Source: Treponemataceae bacterium (lineage in GTDB: Bacteria; Spirochaetota; Spirochaetia; Treponematales; Treponemataceae). Taken from it: a stretch of DNA of 64,000 nt. Where the stretch lies: assembly GCA_024402435.1 (NCBI GenBank), contig JAKSTU010000008.1, positions 1 through 64,000 of the forward strand, given 5' to 3'. Shown one piece after another: positions 5,519-15,051 of this stretch (positions are counted from its first letter, which is position 1; every line of letters starts with the position of its first letter). Made by a program: the position numbers and the translations under genes. A model generated the notes under the pieces. It worked only from the letters and a program-made list of their open reading frames with translations, was not told where the DNA came from and did not search any database.

Positions 5519-7231
5519 TTATTTTACCAGTGTCTTGATGATGTTGTGACGGGGCTCGTTCTGCATAAGCAGATTGTATTTGAACTGACCGTCGCGTCCC
5601 ATACCTGCGTCAAGACAGGCAAGCTTGAATTTCTCAAGACTTCCCGGCTGCAGAATGTGCACGATAGGATCGTTTACACGGAAAGAAGAACGTTTTGCTT
5701 CGTATTCAACATTCCGTTTGCGGAGGTCATTTTCTACAATCCAAGCAAAGCGTTCTGCTTCAGCCTGTGTAACATTTTCTTTTGCAAACTCAAAATACCA
5801 CTGATATGTTGAAATTGCCAGATCTGCAAATCCCAGATAGAAAGGAACATCCAGCCCTGTTTCTTTGATTGCTGTGTTGACGGCATCAATGAACTGGCTT
5901 TCATGGATTTTCTCACCTGTCATGGAAACAATTCCGTTGATTTTCTGGATGAACTGAATTGTAGGAATTGTATCGTATTTGCCTGTGATTTCAACCAGGT
6001 CATTCATGTTATAGCGGTAAAGACCTGCATATGTTGTTACATAAATTGCATAGCGTTTTCCGACTTCTACATCCTGAATCTGAAGGAATTTGGGATTAGG
6101 GTTTTCAAGGTCGTCTTCTGAAACGAATTCAAAGAAGTGCATGTGCGGGAAAAGAACTGTATCGTCCTGTCCGTTGATAACAAGACCGGCGCGGCATTCA
6201 GAAGCAAAATATCCGAATTCCTGATGGTTCATTTCTGCAGGGAAAGCATCGGCAAATCTTGTTGCATAAGAACGTGTGTTACCGCATTTCCATGTGGTAA
6301 GCACTCTCATGTTGGGCCAATAATGTTTGGGAAGAATTTCCCCGTATTTTGCTTTGAGGGCTTTCAGTTCCAGTGCACGGATAGGATTTGGCTGGAAGTA
6401 TTCCTCAATTTCCTTGCGGATGTCATCCGGAATATCAAGATCTTCTTTGAGTGTACCTTTTTCAATGTCTTGTACATACTCGTCAAAGTGTTCATTGATG
6501 TTGTTGATCATCTGTTTGATTGTTGACGGGTTTGCAGTAACAATTGAACCTACGTTCTGCTCAAGTCCGCATCTCATGATTGCGTAATAGCGAGAAGCAT
6601 AATCTTCGATGTTGAAAATCTGATAAGGTGCAGAATGAAGTTTTGAGATGAATTTGGGAACGTCACGGCGTGTAACACCTGATACAGAACCGTAAACAGT
6701 TCCGTCTGGAGCATAACCTTCAACAGCTTTTCCTACGATTGAAATACAGCGTCCGTCAAAAACTGTAGGTCTGTGCATCATGAATGAATAAAGCCACAGC
6801 TTTGTCATTTTGCTGTAAACGTTTCCGTAATATTCGTTTGTAATAGGAATCCATTTGGGCTGATTTGTTGTACCGCTTGTTGTTGCGTACATCATCGGTT
6901 TGCCGGGGAAAAGTACGTTTTCTTCACCTGTCTTGTGGCGTTCTACAAAAGGACGCAGATCTTCATAATCCTGGGGCGGAACATTCTTCTGCCAAAGTTC
7001 ATAAAGTGTCTTGTCATCCGGAGCGCTGAGAATTTCTGCAAAGTGATGGGCCTTTCCCCATTCTGAATCTTTTGCGTACTCAAGAATGCCGCGAAGTGTG
7101 GCATTGGAAGTTTTTCCGCAGTCTTTTGCAGCTTTGTTCAGCTTTTTCAGCTGTGCTTTTCCTGCAATTCCAAGTGCAAAGTTGATGAACCATGCACCCT
7201 CTGTCTTTTTGAGAGTAAGTTTGTCAGACAT
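5519..7231 (-). CDS. GH3 (auxin-responsive family) acyl-adenylating enzyme
   Basis: A 570-aa member of the GH3 family of the adenylate-forming superfamily (not glycoside hydrolase family 3). Characterised plant relatives adenylate a carboxylic acid and transfer it to an amino acid; the bacterial substrate is not known. The ATP-binding loop TTSGTTNQPKWIPIT is near residue 112. The YFASECRAGLV block near 335 and the Y(V)TTYAGLYRYNMNDLVE block near 395 are hallmark GH3 motifs. A GAGGTGA ribosome site precedes the ATG. It is the first gene of a two-gene unit with the HAD hydrolase. No signal peptide is visible, so it should be cytoplasmic. Confidence 0.85.
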   Translation of the reverse strand: MSDKLTLKKTEGAWFINFALGIAGKAQLKKLNKAAKDCGKTSNATLRGILEYAKDSEWGKAHHFAEILSAPDDKTLYELWQKNVPPQDYEDLRPFVERHKTGEENVLFPGKPMMYATTSGTTNQPKWIPITNEYYGNVYSKMTKLWLYSFMMHRPTVFDGRCISIVGKAVEGYAPDGTVYGSVSGVTRRDVPKFISKLHSAPYQIFNIEDYASRYYAIMRCGLEQNVGSIVTANPSTIKQMINNINEHFDEYVQDIEKGTLKEDLDIPDDIRKEIEEYFQPNPIRALELKALKAKYGEILPKHYWPNMRVLTTWKCGNTRSYATRFADAFPAEMNHQEFGYFASECRAGLVINGQDDTVLFPHMHFFEFVSEDDLENPNPKFLQIQDVEVGKRYAIYVTTYAGLYRYNMNDLVEITGKYDTIPTIQFIQKINGIVSMTGEKIHESQFIDAVNTAIKETGLDVPFYLGFADLAISTYQWYFEFAKENVTQAEAERFAWIVENDLRKRNVEYEAKRSSFRVNDPIVHILQPGSLEKFKLACLDAGMGRDGQFKYNLLMQNEPRHNIIKTLVK

Positions 7232-7308: not shown

Positions 7309-8547
7309 ATGATGGTTTTAAATCAGACTTATATGCAAGACTTATTCGCCAGATTATCAGATTCTATCTTTTCAATTGACGAGACACTGCTTGTTGTTCT
7401 ATTCATATCGTTTACTGCAGTTTCTCTCTTTTTGCTCTGCATTTTTTCTTTTTCCCTTGGGAAAAACCGGTATCAGGAACATAAACTTTTCCGGCGCTGG
7501 TGGTATGTTCTTTTTATCCTCATCGGGGCTTTCACGGTTTTTCTCCGCATTTCCTTTCTTGTTGTTTCAATGCTTGTCCCCCGCTATAAGGATTTTCCTT
7601 ATGCGTCACATGTTGTTGTTCTTTGCCTTGGAATTACAATGTTGTGGTTCCTTTTTGAACTGCGTTCAAAAATTCATCTTCCGAAAGGTCAGAAATTTTA
7701 CTTTTATTTTCAGATTTTCATTTCGTTCGGGAATATTTTTGTTTTTACGGCGCTTAAAATGCCACTTTTCATTTTGTTCGGCGTGGAATTCGTTCTGGTT
7801 GCCTTATCTGCGTTTGCAAAAAAACTGATTCCTCAAATCATTGTTTTTCTCCTGATGTTGGTTCCCTTCATGCTTTATGCCAGGGGAGCCTCGCTTCAGC
7901 CTGACTTTACTTATGCTTCATTTCTGCTTCTTCCCGCAGACAACTGGTTTTCTTCTTTTGTGCATGCATGTATAGTTCTCCCGTTCATTTTCATGGCCAT
8001 TCGAATCCTGATTTCTCTTAAAGTCTGGTCCCGGCCCAACCGCGGAAAAAATCTCCGTCGTTTTGTAATCGGAAGCGGATCAAGGACTCTTGTTCTTCTT
8101 GGAATTTCACTCATTTCCTGGGGCTATATGGTTGCAAAAGGCAATGCTCTTGATCGTGAAGCCGGATTGAACCTGGTAAAATCTGTGGACGGATCTTTGT
8201 CATGGACGATTAAAGACGGTTTTGAACCCTGGTTCAATGTTAAAGTCCGGAAGCAGCAGACAACTGCATTGGCAACAAATGTTCTGGAATTTTCCTCAAA
8301 TATGACCATCGTTTCTTTTGATGTGTCCGTAAGCGATTCTGATTATTTTCCCGTTTTGTCTTCAGACTGTGAGTACAGCATGGCTGATTCCGGAACTGCC
8401 GTATTCAGCGGAGTAATAACTCCTGCTTTGTCTTATGTTACCAACTGCCGGAATTGCCCTGTGATAACGATTGTTGCCCATACTGACAAAGGCAAAAACG
8501 ACAGGCCTGTTCTGTTTGAACTGAAGGATCTTGAGTTTGAAGACTGA
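7309..8547 (+). CDS. Polytopic membrane protein of unknown function
   Basis: I do not recognise a family. The N-terminal half has about seven hydrophobic segments (around residues 25-50, 65-90, 98-118, 135-155, 160-190, 210-230 and 260-280 counted from 7309). A C-terminal soluble domain of about 130 residues follows, rich in beta-like strands and containing several cysteines (NCRNCPV). The start is uncertain. The frame is open from a TTG at 7288, with ATGs at 7309, 7312 and 7333, and none has a clear ribosome site. A TATACT hexamer at 7279-7284 could be the -10 box. The 3' end overlaps the start of the dinB gene, suggesting coupling. Confidence 0.6.
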   Translation: MMVLNQTYMQDLFARLSDSIFSIDETLLVVLFISFTAVSLFLLCIFSFSLGKNRYQEHKLFRRWWYVLFILIGAFTVFLRISFLVVSMLVPRYKDFPYASHVVVLCLGITMLWFLFELRSKIHLPKGQKFYFYFQIFISFGNIFVFTALKMPLFILFGVEFVLVALSAFAKKLIPQIIVFLLMLVPFMLYARGASLQPDFTYASFLLLPADNWFSSFVHACIVLPFIFMAIRILISLKVWSRPNRGKNLRRFVIGSGSRTLVLLGISLISWGYMVAKGNALDREAGLNLVKSVDGSLSWTIKDGFEPWFNVKVRKQQTTALATNVLEFSSNMTIVSFDVSVSDSDYFPVLSSDCEYSMADSGTAVFSGVITPALSYVTNCRNCPVITIVAHTDKGKNDRPVLFELKDLEFED

Positions 8548-11500
8548 AAAATGCTTTTTTCATGTTGATCTTGATGCCTTTTTTGCCAGTGTAGAAGTTC
8601 TGGACAATCCTTCTCTGCGTGGAAAACCTGTCATTGTCGGGGGACTTCCCCAAGACCGTCGCAGTGTCGTTTCAACCTGCTCCTATGAAGCAAGAAAATT
8701 CGGTGTTCATTCCGCAATGCCCATTTCCAAAGCCTATCAGCTTTGTCCCCATGGCGTTTTCATCCGCGGCCGTCACCAGCGGTATCACGAACTGTCTTCA
8801 CAGGTTATGCAGATTTTTTCGGATTTTTCACCGGACATGCAGCAGATGTCTGTTGACGAAGCATTTATCGATGTTTCAGGGACACAGCTTTTATGGGGCG
8901 ACCCGGAAGATACTGCAAAGCGCCTGAAAAAGCGGGTAAAAGACGAGACAGGACTTACAGTTTCAGTGGGCATTGCATCAAACAAATACCTTGCAAAAAT
9001 TGCATCAGGGCTTTCCAAACCTGACGGCCTTTACAGAGTCCCCTCCGGAAAAGAAGAAGAATTCATGCTTTCGCTTCCACTTTCAAAAGTTTGGGGAATC
9101 GGTTCAAAATCCTTGGCACGTCTTAATCAAGTCGGATTTTTTACTACACAGCAAGTCCATGATGCAACTCTTTCAGGGCTTACCAACATTTTCGGCCAGA
9201 GCATGGGTTCTTTTTTGTACAATGTTGTAAGAGGTCAGGTTGAAGGCTCCTTTGATGAGGAACCAAAAAGCAGATCCATCAGCGCAGAACGTACTTTTTC
9301 ATTTGATCTTACGGAACCTTATGCAATAGAAACAGCCCTTTCCCAACTTGCTTATACAGTTTTTTTCCGGTCTCTCAGGGAAAAATGCCGGAGTAAAAGT
9401 GTTCATCTTAAAATCCGCTATGAAGATTTTACAACTGTCAGCATTCAGGAAACTTTCCAACGGACGGTTTCATCTTCTGAAGATCTTTATGAGTATGCAA
9501 AAATCCTTTTCAACAAAAAATGGGATCGGGGCAAAGGAATACGGCTTCTTGGTCTTGCAATGCAGAATCTGATTGACGGAGAAACAGAAGAACAGGGCGA
9601 ACTTTTTGATTTCGGCGAAAAGAAAAAGCGTGCTGTCGAAAAAGCGGTTCTGAATCTTGAGCAGAAAAACCATTCATTAAAACTTAAAAAAGCCCGGCAT
9701 CTCATAAAATGTCTGATTCTTGGATTCATGCTTGTATTCGGAAAACCTGATTCTGCACCTGCATTGACTTACGAAAACGGTGATTTTTTTGCAGAAACTT
9801 CGGGAACATGGGAAGCAAAAATTGAATCAGGACTGGAATTGACTGACGGAAAACTTTCCTTCTCAAATCCTGTTTTTTCCCAGAATATTGATTTATATGC
9901 TTATGCCGGATTCGGGGAAAAATTTTCTTTTGAAGGCAGTTTTACCAAAAATTTTCTTTCAAATTCTCTCTTGTTTGAATATTTCGGAAAAGAAGATTCA
10001 GCATTAAAAACGATTAAAGCCGGAAACCGAGGCATTGGCCTTGAATCTGCCGGAATTTACGGTTCGGAAGCGCCCGGAATCCTTTTTTCTTTTGGTGATG
10101 ATTCAAAAACTTGGGCAAACAATACTTTGCTCCGTTATGAGCAGCTTGAAACCTGCACAAAAACTTTTCGCGGACAGAATGAAATCCGGCTTCGCCAGGT
10201 AAACTGCTGGGAATATGCTCAGGGGCAATTTTTTTCTTTTCCCGAAGAAATACCCGTTTCAAGGATAAAGAATCTTTTTGTCCAAAACACAAACGGAAAC
10301 ATTGAAAGGCTTTCCCTTTCTTCTTATGCTGTTTTCAATTCCCGAAACATGATTCTTCTGAAAAATGGCGTAAAAGGCAAACTTTTTGCTGATTTTTTGT
10401 TTGATGCTGATTTTTCGGAGTCTGATTTGAACAATGCTTTGTCCAGGTTGATGCAGAATTCTGCGGATTTTTTATGCAATGGCAGCGTTGATAAACTTCT
10501 CCAATTTACAACTTGTGATTTTTCCGCAGAAAACGGGCGTCTTTTATTGTATGAAAATGATTTTTTTTCACCTTTTCAGAATTGTTCATTTTTTCCGGTT
10601 TCTTCTGCGGCAGGAAAATCCGCTTTTGATGAAGCTTTTCTTGTGTCCGGAAATTTTTCTGACAATTCCCGGTTAAACAGCTTGTCTTTTCAGGATTTTG
10701 GCGGAGATTTTTTTGACAATGACAATTATTGGATGCAAACTGTGCCTTCTTCCACAGGAAATTATCTGTCAGAACTTTTCCCTTTTTCCGCTTTGTCCCC
10801 GGATTTTTATCTTTTGCCCGAAAAAACTGATTTTGTCAGCCCTTTTCAAATTCATATTCAGGAATACAACTCCGTTTCAAGATACGAAATCCCGACAGAT
10901 GCAATTCCCGATTCTGTTGTTGTAACAGTCAATCAGATTCCCGCCCGTTTTTCCTACAACGGTTCAAGCGGTGTTGTTATTATAGAAGAAAATGTCAAAG
11001 AAAATGATCTTGTTACAATCCGTTGGAATGAAAAAGCTTCGAAATCCGATTTCGGAAAAATACGGCTTGTAAACGAAACAAACTGGACCCTGTCTGACAA
11101 TATTGAACTTTACGGAAATTTTTCCGCATTGTGGCCCTTTTTGCCTTCAATTTCCGGAAAAGAAATTCATTCCGACACAAACAGAACTTTGTCCGAAGAA
11201 ATCAGTGCAGAAGCGGGCCTTAAAAGCAAATTCCCTTTTTCAGAAAATTTGGCTTTGTCACTTGATTCCGGCTTTTCCGCACACTTTCTTAACCCTGATT
11301 CAGGCGGTTTGTACTGCATAAGTGATTTTGGAAAACCAGCGGATTTTCATGTTGAAAAACTTAACGGAGGAACTACACTGGTTCTGACAAAGGATTTTTC
11401 TTCAATTCCTTTGAATAAATACGAAAAAGCAGGTTTTCATTTTTTTTCTCCCGATCTTTCAGGACACGAGACAGAAATCGAGGTAAAAATCAGTTTTCTT

Positions 11501-13033
11501 GAACCTGTCATGAATTCCATTTCCGCATTGGATTACAGAAAAGTTCTTGAATACAAACTTTCTGAAGATGATTTGAAAGAATCTGCCTTGTCTCTCCATA
11601 AAATTCTTTTTGATGTCCCCCATGAAGCAGAATATGCCGCACGGATTCAGATTGAAATTGACGGGAATGATGAACTTTTCCCTGAAAAATTTGTAATGGA
11701 AGATTTTTTTCTCTGTGAACCTGTTTGCAATACTGAATTTCAGAACAAAACTTCGCTGAATTTTGAAAACGGTGAAAATATTGTTGGCATAAATTTCAAA
11801 GGTAGCATAAATCCTTATGATGAAAAGAATTATTTTTTTGTAAATGCAAAGGGAAAATGGGATTTCAGTTTTTTGAGCACATCTTTTTCTGCTGATTTCT
11901 CAAAAAAATACGACAACTCTGCTGCTTTTGACAATTTTTCTTATTCTGTTTCTCAAAACCCCGCCTGGAAATATTCGCCTTTTTTCCAATTCAAAGACAC
12001 ATTGTCTTATGTTCCCGATGAAAAAACAGTCTCCAAAACCGAATTCATCGGATTTGATGTGCCTTTGGAAAAAATTGCTTCAAAAATTCAAGGGGATGCG
12101 AAGGCTGATTTTCTCTTTTCTGACAGACTTGAAAAATTTTCAGTTGATTCACAATTTTCTTTTGAAACTGAAAAATTTGCCGGTTATCAATTCAAATGGA
12201 TTTTGAACAGTTTCAGAAAAAGGCCCAAAGATTCGGTTTCATTGAAAAACCGGATAATTCAGTCCTGTCAATTTGATTTTTTGTCATTTGCTCCCGAACT
12301 CCAGTTTTCATCTGAAGGCAAAGTTTCTTCGGCCGGTGCTAATGTTTCGTCCGCTGATTTTTTCAAAACCGATGTTTTTCTTTGTCAGCTTAATTTGCCT
12401 TTCCGAATTTCACGGAATTCTTTTTCACTGCTTTTGTCCGAAAAAATCATTGATTCAGATTTGTCAAAATATGTTCATAACGGGCAGTTTTCCTGGGCGC
12501 GCCCCGTTTTCGGCAATGGAAAAGATCTGCTGATTCCTTCAAAAATCGTTTTTTCCTACAAAGGCGAAACACTTTTGTCTGGCACTGTCCACGATTTTTC
12601 TCTTGAAAGTTTCCAGGAAGCAATCAATTTTTTTGGATTGGAAAACGAACTTTTCGGTTCCGGTAAAATTTCTCTGTCTGATTTTGCTTTGGGCTTTGAT
12701 CTTCTTCTGATTTATTCACAGTTTTTCGGGGAAAATCAGAAAATGTCTTACACATGTGATTTTTCCTTCACAGAAAAAGAGTGGAAACTGAAAAATGCAG
12801 TTTCTGCCACCTTGGGAAGCAAAGAAAACTCAATTAAAATCGGAATTGATTCAAACCTTCAGAACAATGGCGGCAATGATCTGCTTCAGAAATGGAAGGC
12901 CCAATACAATCAGACAATCAATATAAATGAAAACATCGGGCTTCTTATTGAGGGTTCAGCAGTCCTGTCTGTTCAGGAAAAGAAAATCTCAACAGTTTTT
13001 TCCCTAAGTTTGGGAGGCCGCCTTACACTCTGA
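8537..13033 (+). CDS. dinB: In-frame fusion: DNA polymerase IV (DinB) plus large putative outer-membrane/exported protein
   Basis: One open frame of 1,498 codons holds two proteins. Residues 1 to about 385 are a full Y-family polymerase: FFHVDLDAFFASVE (first catalytic Asp) near residue 10, SVDEAFIDVSG near 105, a helix-hairpin-helix region, a little-finger domain and a typical terminal basic tail KKARHL. A signal-peptide-like stretch and about 1,090 residues rich in Phe, Ser and Asn follow, in beta-strand-like patterns ending SLSLGGRLTL, resembling an outer-membrane barrel. No stop separates them. The start is a TTG: the one at 8537 is 7 bases after AAGGAT and is preferred over 8531; both overlap the previous gene. 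A lost stop codon, a true polyprotein or a sequence error are all possible. Confidence 0.75.
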   Translation: MKTEKCFFHVDLDAFFASVEVLDNPSLRGKPVIVGGLPQDRRSVVSTCSYEARKFGVHSAMPISKAYQLCPHGVFIRGRHQRYHELSSQVMQIFSDFSPDMQQMSVDEAFIDVSGTQLLWGDPEDTAKRLKKRVKDETGLTVSVGIASNKYLAKIASGLSKPDGLYRVPSGKEEEFMLSLPLSKVWGIGSKSLARLNQVGFFTTQQVHDATLSGLTNIFGQSMGSFLYNVVRGQVEGSFDEEPKSRSISAERTFSFDLTEPYAIETALSQLAYTVFFRSLREKCRSKSVHLKIRYEDFTTVSIQETFQRTVSSSEDLYEYAKILFNKKWDRGKGIRLLGLAMQNLIDGETEEQGELFDFGEKKKRAVEKAVLNLEQKNHSLKLKKARHLIKCLILGFMLVFGKPDSAPALTYENGDFFAETSGTWEAKIESGLELTDGKLSFSNPVFSQNIDLYAYAGFGEKFSFEGSFTKNFLSNSLLFEYFGKEDSALKTIKAGNRGIGLESAGIYGSEAPGILFSFGDDSKTWANNTLLRYEQLETCTKTFRGQNEIRLRQVNCWEYAQGQFFSFPEEIPVSRIKNLFVQNTNGNIERLSLSSYAVFNSRNMILLKNGVKGKLFADFLFDADFSESDLNNALSRLMQNSADFLCNGSVDKLLQFTTCDFSAENGRLLLYENDFFSPFQNCSFFPVSSAAGKSAFDEAFLVSGNFSDNSRLNSLSFQDFGGDFFDNDNYWMQTVPSSTGNYLSELFPFSALSPDFYLLPEKTDFVSPFQIHIQEYNSVSRYEIPTDAIPDSVVVTVNQIPARFSYNGSSGVVIIEENVKENDLVTIRWNEKASKSDFGKIRLVNETNWTLSDNIELYGNFSALWPFLPSISGKEIHSDTNRTLSEEISAEAGLKSKFPFSENLALSLDSGFSAHFLNPDSGGLYCISDFGKPADFHVEKLNGGTTLVLTKDFSSIPLNKYEKAGFHFFSPDLSGHETEIEVKISFLEPVMNSISALDYRKVLEYKLSEDDLKESALSLHKILFDVPHEAEYAARIQIEIDGNDELFPEKFVMEDFFLCEPVCNTEFQNKTSLNFENGENIVGINFKGSINPYDEKNYFFVNAKGKWDFSFLSTSFSADFSKKYDNSAAFDNFSYSVSQNPAWKYSPFFQFKDTLSYVPDEKTVSKTEFIGFDVPLEKIASKIQGDAKADFLFSDRLEKFSVDSQFSFETEKFAGYQFKWILNSFRKRPKDSVSLKNRIIQSCQFDFLSFAPELQFSSEGKVSSAGANVSSADFFKTDVFLCQLNLPFRISRNSFSLLLSEKIIDSDLSKYVHNGQFSWARPVFGNGKDLLIPSKIVFSYKGETLLSGTVHDFSLESFQEAINFFGLENELFGSGKISLSDFALGFDLLLIYSQFFGENQKMSYTCDFSFTEKEWKLKNAVSATLGSKENSIKIGIDSNLQNNGGNDLLQKWKAQYNQTININENIGLLIEGSAVLSVQEKKISTVFSLSLGGRLTL
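9680..9763 (+). other. Polymerase/exported-protein junction with internal signal peptide
   Basis: After the basic polymerase tail KLKKARHLIK comes a hydrophobic core CLILGFMLVFG and a small-residue site SAPA, where signal peptidase I could cut after codon 9761-9763. This is a standard signal peptide lying inside the frame. The only nearby in-frame ATG (9728) would remove most of the hydrophobic core. An ATA codon at 9704 sits exactly where a normal start Met-Lys would be expected and may be a decayed ATG. Confidence 0.6.
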
Positions 13034-13041
13034 TTCCGGAA

Positions 13042-15051
13042 TTATTCCAAAGGTGAATAATATCCTGCTTCTGCACGGCCTGAACGGTTATAAAGGTAAA
13101 CTTCCACTTCTACCGGCAAATATGCGTTTCCGAAATTGGTTGAAAGGCTTGATGTGTAGGAAAGCGTGTAAACACCTGTCGGAATTGACCAAAGTTCCTG
13201 AGCCAATCCTCCGATTCCGGTGGGCCGGTACAAAAACCAGCTGAGTCCTCCGGTATTTTCAACCAGATAGTCCAGTTCCGAAGAAATTGCACCGCTGGTT
13301 ACGCTTATGACAGAAAAGTTTACTCCGTTGTTTGCAAGATATGCACTTAAATCGCTTAATGTGTAGTTGTTGAAAGCATTTGCAGTAATCCCGCCGTCCG
13401 TAATGAAAACTACAGAACGTTTGTAAGAACCGTTTATAAGATCATTGGTTGCAAGGCGCAATGCAAGATCAAGGGGAACTGTGGATGAAAAATCGGTTTT
13501 CAACTGGGATGACTGGAATGCGTAAACGGAAGCCGGCGTTGCAATCAGTTCTGTAGAAGGAAATGCGCCTGCCGCAATTATTCTCAGGTTGCCCTTGCCT
13601 CCCATGCTTGAAGCGATTTCCGTTACAGCCTGATTCACGGCTTTTTCGTAGGCTTTCATGGAAACAGACCTGTCAATGATGATTGTAATGTCACCTGAAT
13701 CAAGCAAATCAGCTTTTCCGAGCAAAGTCTGTCCGTTTACCGAATAATTCTTTTCCGTGACAGTAAAATTCTCACCTTTCAAGCCTACAACCGGCTGCTG
13801 TTTTCTGTTCTGAATGCGGAGTTCCAGCTGCACAGAAGGAAATTTGTCAGCATTTACCCGGGCAATTTCAACGTAAAGTCCGCCTACAATCTCACTCATT
13901 TCTGAAAGCACAAGAACTTCCTGCTGGTCAAAATCCGTTACAAGAAGATTGTTGTTTTTGTCCAGAGCGGTTCCCGTGATTCTTGAATCAGAGTTTCCTA
14001 TGTCAGCAATTGTTTTCAGTGCTCCTGTCACCGGATCCAGAAGAATCACTTTTGTAGTGTCCGAAATTACCAGCTTTCCTTCAATGATTTTTATTGATTC
14101 AGGAAGGGCAAAAGTTCCGTCTTTTACAAGCTGTCCCTGATAATTTCCTGCAGTGTCAAAAATGTAAACCGCTCCTGTAACTCCGTCTGCAACAAAAACT
14201 TCGTCGTTCAGGACTGCAATTCCTGTGGGGGCGGTAAATTCTCCGAAATAAAAAAGAAAGTCACCGTTTTCGTCAAATACACAGACCCGGCCGTTTCCGA
14301 AATCCGTAACAAAAATATTGCCGTTTGAATCTTCCGCAAGATATTGTGGCCCTACAAGACCGTTGTCTCCCCGTCCGCTTTCTCCCGCCGATCTGATGAA
14401 GTTTCCGCCTGCATCAAGAAAGCTTATGCGGTTTCCTGCAAATTCGGAAATTACGAAATTTCCTGAAGAAAGCCGAAGTATGTCCATGGGACGGTCAAAA
14501 CCTGTCAGAGGCCCGCGGATTCTGTCAAGAAGTATGCCGTTGGTGTCATAACGCAGAATTTCGTTTGAACCGTATGCTACAAGCCAAAAACTTCCGTCTT
14601 CGTTGGCTGCAACTGAAACCGGGTAACTGAAGAAAAGCTGTTCTCCTTCTGAACCGGGAAAGGATCGTGCTTCAACAAAACGGTTTTCTCCAAAGGATTC
14701 CGCACCAAGAATCCTACGGTTTCTTACGATTTCAATTGTATTTTCAAGGAGCTGTCCGCCGTAACCGGCTTCTGAGGCCATTGTCCATTCCTGAATTGCG
14801 GCCCCTTCCATTCCTGCCCGGTAATAGGCTTTCCCAAGCCACTCAATAATCAGGTTTTCTTCAGGCAAGTATGTAAGTGCTTTTTCAAACTGAAGAATTG
14901 CATCATTGAAGGAACCGCGGTAAAAAGCCTGAACACCACGGCGGAACTCTTCTTCGGCAAAACCGCGGTCGCTGGCTGACTGTGAAAAGACAGAACTCAG
15001 TGCAAAAACAAGAACGAGGACTGTGACCAATGTACGCAGAAGTTTTTTCAT
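13042..15051 (-). CDS. Exported TPR - NHL beta-propeller - von Willebrand A protein
   Basis: A 669-aa protein with a signal peptide at residues 1-24 (LVLVFALSSVFSQS). Two or more TPR-like repeats span about 28-105, and NHL/SMP-30-like propeller repeats about 130-395 (recurrent GNFVISEFAGNRISFLD, NIFVTDFGNGRVCVFD). The VWA domain at about 455-650 carries the metal-site motif DRSVS near 464 and FITDGG near 555. The layout suggests a periplasmic or surface scaffold that binds partners through propeller and VWA. Its ATG overlaps the stop of the upstream TPR gene by one base, so the two are coupled. The 3' end converges with the polymerase-fusion gene with an 8-bp gap. No enzymatic role is visible. 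Confidence 0.75.
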   Translation of the reverse strand: MKKLLRTLVTVLVLVFALSSVFSQSASDRGFAEEEFRRGVQAFYRGSFNDAILQFEKALTYLPEENLIIEWLGKAYYRAGMEGAAIQEWTMASEAGYGGQLLENTIEIVRNRRILGAESFGENRFVEARSFPGSEGEQLFFSYPVSVAANEDGSFWLVAYGSNEILRYDTNGILLDRIRGPLTGFDRPMDILRLSSGNFVISEFAGNRISFLDAGGNFIRSAGESGRGDNGLVGPQYLAEDSNGNIFVTDFGNGRVCVFDENGDFLFYFGEFTAPTGIAVLNDEVFVADGVTGAVYIFDTAGNYQGQLVKDGTFALPESIKIIEGKLVISDTTKVILLDPVTGALKTIADIGNSDSRITGTALDKNNNLLVTDFDQQEVLVLSEMSEIVGGLYVEIARVNADKFPSVQLELRIQNRKQQPVVGLKGENFTVTEKNYSVNGQTLLGKADLLDSGDITIIIDRSVSMKAYEKAVNQAVTEIASSMGGKGNLRIIAAGAFPSTELIATPASVYAFQSSQLKTDFSSTVPLDLALRLATNDLINGSYKRSVVFITDGGITANAFNNYTLSDLSAYLANNGVNFSVISVTSGAISSELDYLVENTGGLSWFLYRPTGIGGLAQELWSIPTGVYTLSYTSSLSTNFGNAYLPVEVEVYLYNRSGRAEAGYYSPLE

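Follow-up and report, generated by a model that had tools for sequence, protein, structure and literature searches.

We found that a single open reading frame in a 64,000-nucleotide stretch of the genome of a Treponemataceae bacterium (contig JAKSTU010000008.1 of assembly GCA_024402435.1; hereafter the window) joins a complete DinB, or DNA polymerase IV (Pol IV), to a large exported protein through an internal signal peptide, and that this fusion is real, old, and conserved. The frame runs on the + strand from TTG 8537 to TGA 13031-13033 and comprises 1,498 codons with zero internal stops. An earlier reading made from the letters alone (the sequence-only reading) had offered two explanations for it: loss of a stop and a start, giving a polyprotein, or an error in the assembly. 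In our best reading the frame probably encodes a polyprotein that signal peptidase cuts into Pol IV and a SprA-like outer-membrane channel; we infer the cleavage, the tethering of the polymerase described below, and the function in secretion.

The same in-frame arrangement occurs in 89 distinct DinB sequences across the Treponemataceae, as seen by inspection of the fetched loci. Since the same architecture recurs so many times, the fusion is not a product of chance. Fused frames are present in the complete chromosomes of the isolates Treponema ruminis RU1 and T. parvum ATCC 700773, as well as in isolates of T. berlinense and in three strains of T. bryantii. Among the 274 genomes of the family, 155 carry the exported half, and most of the DinB matches that adjoin it lie in frames of 1,300-2,113 residues. 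Within the window's own genus, three other species (G001, G002, and G004) have frames of 1,760-1,847 codons with identical order, and three (G003, G005, and G006) have a plain DinB without the exported half. A scan of the genome contigs with a pattern built from the window's exported half as a single sequence recovered no relative; relatives were found when an alignment served as the query. Of the complete treponeme genomes included, the smallest (G038, 1.1 Mb) has neither a DinB at E <= 1e-60 nor the exported half.

Ratios of nonsynonymous to synonymous substitution (dN/dS) between close pairs are 0-0.07 for the DinB half and 0.07-0.21 for the exported half, and both halves are therefore under purifying selection. 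These data bear directly on the explanation that an assembly or base-calling error in a draft genome removed a stop and changed the frame. The window's genome is indeed a draft of 130 contigs, and two relatives have flaws of their own: In L138 (genome G253) a frameshift in the 3′ part of dinB causes the fused frame to go on in another frame, so that this copy is either broken or misread, and L202 has Ns at the junction. However, an error would have to have arisen in 89 distinct sequences, several of them in complete isolate genomes, and to have left purifying selection acting on both sides of the junction. We therefore exclude it, and its probability is negligible.

The DinB half is a DNA polymerase IV by its domains, its equivalog score, and its catalytic residues. 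Pfam IMS and IMS_C are both matched, with palm, thumb, and C-terminal little-finger domains present, and the NCBIfam Pol IV equivalog NF002677 scores 331 bits (cut-off 256); identity to the nearest relatives is 58-66%. The sequence-only reading had this right in describing a complete DinB with its basic tail (KKARHL) inside one 1,498-codon frame. The window's DinB contains HVDLDAFF and SVDEAFID. The first catalytic motif (D) is found in 147 of 147 DinB sequences and the DE motif in 146 of 147, fused and unfused alike; the pattern missed the latter in L234. A clamp-binding-like motif, QGELFDF, presumably has the role in clamp contact that it has in the DinB family. The start could also be TTG 8531, but the spacing from the AAGGA at 8524-8528 favors TTG 8537. 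Where an ordinary DinB ends, the chain here runs on, first as a signal peptide and then as the exported protein.

At the junction in the window, the KKAR stretch forms a basic n-region that is followed by a hydrophobic core, IKCLILGFMLVFG, and by SAPA, which agrees with the signal peptide proposed earlier. KKARHL is followed directly by an ATA codon, with no ATG, GTG, or TTG before the core, and the sole nearby in-frame ATG sits within the core itself; the earlier statement that no alternative start fits the second part thus holds as well. Between 9640 and 9820 the other two reading frames are interrupted by stops.

Among fused proteins the junction sequence drifts while the features of the signal peptide persist. 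All 89 have a strong hydrophobic core, and in 85 the net charge just before it is at least +2 (mean +3.7, compared with -0.4 in controls). A signal peptidase I motif follows the core in 80 of the 89, against 0.38 of control windows. The features of a substrate of Sec and signal peptidase I (basic n-region, core, and small residues at -3 and -1) are all present, and cleavage is predicted. In one genome (G193; L197/L095) a linker of ~80 residues stands between DinB and a signal peptide that is still typical.

Two proteins could also arise if the exported half were translated from a hidden start in the 3′ end of dinB (for the window, ATA, ATT, or another non-AUG codon), with the long frame merely incidental. 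Ancestral exported genes did have an overlapping ATG of their own; some ATG, GTG, or TTG occurs within 25 codons before the core in 42 of the 89 fused junctions, and one clade reads KAR-ATG-LE at the junction. Nevertheless, 47 of the 89 junctions have no such codon in this interval; the junction of the window has none before the core; a start codon together with a Shine-Dalgarno (SD)-like motif occurs in 0 of 89; start codons before the core are rarer (0.47) than in control windows inside DinB (0.61); and across the clade the junction has no position at which a start codon is conserved. SD-like motifs are found at DinB's own starts in 34 of the 89 fused sequences. The weight of the SD argument is limited because an SD motif precedes only four of 13 separate exported genes, which shows that coupled starts may do without it. 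Taken together, we regard internal initiation as improbable. We give still less credence to an uncut hybrid, in which the hydrophobic segment is a permanent anchor and Pol IV stays joined to the exported domain across the inner membrane. The topology would allow it, since a cytosolic N-terminal domain of ~390 residues precedes the segment in all fused sequences, but the cleavage motif is kept far more often than by chance, a predicted outer-membrane barrel could hardly reach the outer membrane while tethered, and split relatives carry ordinary N-terminal signal peptides.

In the polyprotein reading, one ribosome would make Pol IV first, which would fold in the cytoplasm. The basic DinB tail and the hydrophobic segment would then act as an internal signal peptide that engages Sec, with its N side cytoplasmic and its C side outside. 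Signal peptidase I would cut after the small-x-small motif SAPA and free an outer-membrane protein of ~1,089 residues, while Pol IV would retain the spent signal peptide at its C-terminus and so probably be tethered at first to the inner membrane. FbcH of Bradyrhizobium, a polyprotein precursor of cytochromes b and c1 that is cut by signal peptidase, offers a precedent for one frame with two proteins parted at an internal signal peptide. Both products of FbcH are membrane respiratory subunits of a single complex, however, whereas here the parts are a cytoplasmic DNA polymerase and an outer-membrane protein. Proteins of the ToxR/CadC type share the order of N-terminal cytosolic DNA-acting domain, one membrane segment, and exported domain, but the present fusion differs from them in its conserved cleavage motif and in an exported part that resembles an outer-membrane barrel.

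The fusion can be traced to an overlapping gene pair. Separate neighboring dinB and exported genes are found in T. denticola and other early-branching treponemes (the other members of g15, and g13) and in distant Spirochaetales; one of these genomes we take to be that of T. denticola ATCC 35405. In such pairs the stop codon of dinB shares bases with the ATG that follows, in most cases as ATGA, the second gene lies in a different frame, and the exported protein has an ordinary N-terminal signal peptide. Overlaps of this kind couple translation through termination-reinitiation (PMC6728339, PMC10666635). The same 4-nt overlap is present in the unfused relatives, but in the fused lineages the pair has been merged into a single frame that is kept across most of the family; given these separate overlapping genes in relatives, we conclude that the fusion is a frame merge of a translationally coupled pair. 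Fusion in the relatives and these ATGA-overlap pairs both support the polyprotein option of the sequence-only reading. After the KAR codons, the relative L206 reads CTTTT-ATGA (GCAAGACTTTT-ATGA), and the window reads CATCTC-ATAA, one nucleotide longer; with this extra nucleotide the two frames become one and the former start site reads ATA. The ATA had been pointed out as standing where a start would be expected, and by position this is correct: The ATG of L206 occupies the same site, one nucleotide nearer the KAR codons.

A lost ATG unique to the window was considered and rejected, since an Ile codon occurs at the same place, inside the DinB tail, in sister species without the exported half. 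The tails of these plain DinBs (KARNLINKN in L006 of G005, KARNFIKKP in L007 of G003, and KARNFIKKHD in L008 of G006) look like a remnant of a signal-peptide n-region, and for this reason the sister species probably lost the exported half after fusion. On the DinB tree, nine of nine outgroup rows are of the operon type, with separate overlapping genes, and a single clade of 129 rows contains all 89 fused rows. The simplest reading is one fusion, followed by losses and some re-splits, and the merge, which probably came about by a small indel at the ATGA overlap of an ancestral operon of dinB and the exported-protein gene, would then fall in an ancestor of most Treponemataceae. Against a single event, three ATGA-overlap cases (L154, L206, and L231) lie inside the fused clade, so several fusions or re-splits are possible; because several inner branches are also weak, repeated fusion is possible. 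A stop after DinB with an ATG before the signal peptide, the pattern in relatives that was to have spoken against the fusion, does occur in the outgroups and in a few re-split lineages (as ATGA), but it is not a sign of sequencing error, since this arrangement is ancestral.

The exported half is found through the Spirochaetota, mostly as a separate gene outside the Treponemataceae, and its C-terminus is usually F, Y, or W, as in outer-membrane barrels. The ~1,090 residues of beta-rich sequence expected after the signal peptide are 1,089 residues that belong to no Pfam family and that AlphaFold models as nearly all-beta. We compared two models with the PDB by using Foldseek: that of the window protein, with a predicted local distance difference test (pLDDT) score of 77.9, and that of L187 (pLDDT 80.8), which is likewise nearly all-beta and only 19% identical to it. 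For both, four entries of SprA (6h3i, 6h3j, 8gl6, and 8gl8), the type 9 secretion translocon, rank 1-4. E-values to SprA are 2.1e-20 to 1.6e-13 for the window model (next match, 1e-7) and 1.8e-13 to 1.2e-5 for L187 (next match, 1.3e-5). What links the exported half to the SprA/Sov system is this best structural match of both models and, less firmly, that the genomes encoding it tend also to encode a PorV-like protein and proteins with TIGR04183-type C-terminal tails. It differs in size (~1,100-1,600 residues compared with ~2,000-2,300), in lacking a match to Pfam SprA_N, in its occurrence in Spirochaetota, and in being made as a DinB fusion. The term "surface protein" in the sequence-only reading can thus be sharpened, on the predicted models, to an SprA-like outer-membrane barrel. 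A weak match to 2CompART (E 0.1) was rejected as below the cut-off.

Among the 155 genomes with the exported half, 147 have PorV_fam matches (six weak ones excluded), compared with 10 of the 119 without it, and on the tree five or six of six supported independent pairs agree in most pairings of the two. PorV is the only outer-membrane chain in the PDB that is matched by the UPF0164 proteins (E 2.7e-4). TIGR04183, the model of the sorting tail of the type 9 secretion system (T9SS), tracks the exported half more weakly (104/155 vs. 9/119); its matches lie at the very C-terminal end of large proteins, and in 86 genomes they exceed the cut-off. UPF0164/PorV-like proteins occur in the family almost only where the exported half does, and the window's own genome encodes a UPF0164 protein (L299; G000:C60:18648-19571) with a PorV family match at E 1.7e-22. 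A highly conserved end tail (VARGMYFIR..G..DETRKVMVVK), above the cut-off of the T9SS sorting model, is seen at G000:C67:9348-9566 and in L302-L304 and L336-L364, in proteins mostly of ~700-5,600 residues; such a tail is possibly a cargo signal in treponemes.

Several observations weigh against a SprA-like channel in a type-9-like system. The best TM-scores to SprA are 0.51 (window model) and 0.45 (L187), with a large root-mean-square deviation, and SprA is the only PDB barrel of such size, so size may favor the match. When the exported half was searched against Pfam, the PDB, and the SprA_N profile, only chance-level matches resulted, with none at the sequence level to SprA_N or to SprA chains, and a scan of 29 of its members found no SprA_N or other profile match at E <= 0.5. 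PF14349 was absent from 31 genomes in a search that had no positive control, and GldM (PF12081) had no match over the cut-off in 13 genomes, where GldL and others were not searched for. Most PorV_fam matches are UPF0164 proteins that score under the curated cut-off, the sorting-like tail has a likeness to the FlgD immunoglobulin-like domain as well, and the tree-controlled association of the TIGR04183 tail with the exported half is weak. One survey found T9SS only in Bacteroidetes (PMC4793230).

The exported half could accordingly be a giant outer-membrane protein of another class, involved for example in lipid or nutrient transport or in anchoring a surface layer, with a likeness to SprA that reflects only size and strand number. 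The lack of a sequence-profile match to SprA, the absence of other solved barrels of this size, and the failure to find GldM all fit such a protein. In the window model, however, SprA leads other barrels in E-value by ~6 (worst SprA entry) to 13 (best) orders; in that of L187, three SprA entries are 6 to 8 orders ahead of the next match and the fourth is level with it. Co-occurrence with the PorV-like protein and the T9SS-type tails likewise speaks against another class, which we hold to be the less likely but a serious alternative. Given the modest TM-scores and the single solved barrel of this size, SprA homology is likely, not proved; on balance it is rather likely that the exported half works like the SprA translocon, and we refrain from assigning it to the type 9 system. 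The freed barrel would probably work with the PorV-like UPF0164 barrel, passing large tail-bearing proteins across the outer membrane.

Coordinates of the features are collected in Table 1. Just downstream of the fusion, a convergent gene (13042-15051, - strand) encodes a protein with NHL repeats, a von Willebrand A domain, and a signal peptide; of the six other species of the genus that were examined, all but G002 have a homolog adjoining the fusion or dinB. A GH3-family protein (plant auxin-conjugase-like) is encoded nearby at 5519-7231 (- strand). In other spirochaete families (L290, L291, L287, and L284) the exported gene is preceded by a small gene whose product begins M(R/K)(V/I)(H/R)NL(M/L)... 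and appears by eye to be ComFB-like (late competence).

Table 1. Features of the DinB fusion in the window
Feature	Position	Strand	Basis
Shine-Dalgarno-like AAGGA	8524..8528	+	8 nt upstream of TTG 8537; sequence
DinB/DNA polymerase IV half, residues 1-389, with C-terminal basic tail KKARHL	8537..9703	+	IMS, IMS_C, and NF002677 above cut-off
Catalytic motif HVDLDAFFASVE	8561..8596	+	Sequence motif
Catalytic motif SVDEAFID	8849..8872	+	Sequence motif
Clamp-binding-like motif QGELFDF	9593..9613	+	Sequence motif
KKARHL, basic tail of DinB and signal-peptide n-region	9686..9703	+	Positive stretch before core in 85/89 fused sequences
ATA (Ile), where the ATG start of the downstream gene stood ancestrally	9704..9706	+	Position relative to L206 and to sister-species tail KARNFIKK
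Hydrophobic core of signal peptide (IKCLILGFMLVFGK)	9704..9745	+	Core in 89/89 fused proteins
SAPA, predicted signal peptidase I motif (cut would follow base 9763)	9752..9763	+	Motif in 80/89 fused vs. 0.38 of control windows
Exported half of 1,089 residues, predicted to be a giant SprA-like beta protein of the outer membrane; stop 13031-13033	9764..13030	+	AlphaFold2 pLDDT 77.9; Foldseek best match SprA; homologs in Spirochaetota

In the open-licence papers that we searched, we found no relevant report of DinB fusions, of a spirochaetal SprA, or of a spirochaetal T9SS. Fusions cut by signal peptidase are known, as in FbcH, and ATGA overlaps are frequent; the novel element is the union of a DNA polymerase with a probable outer-membrane channel, retained across a family. 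Nature thus offers a test case for internal signal peptides that follow a large folded enzyme, for the route from overlapping genes to a fusion, and for the ability of Pol IV to function when bound to a membrane. If the frame is a polyprotein, a single translation event would give both a cytoplasmic error-prone polymerase and a surface channel. The SprA-like look, the PorV-like partner, and the tail-bearing giant proteins together point to type-9-like secretion in the Spirochaetota. More tentatively, treponemes and other spirochaetes may possess a type-9-like route in which one polyprotein gives rise to both the SprA-like channel and Pol IV, the polymerase being first tethered to the inner membrane and its amount, place, or activity tied to export of the channel; as a whole this is possible but doubtful. 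Such a route could bear on the surface proteins of oral and gut treponemes.

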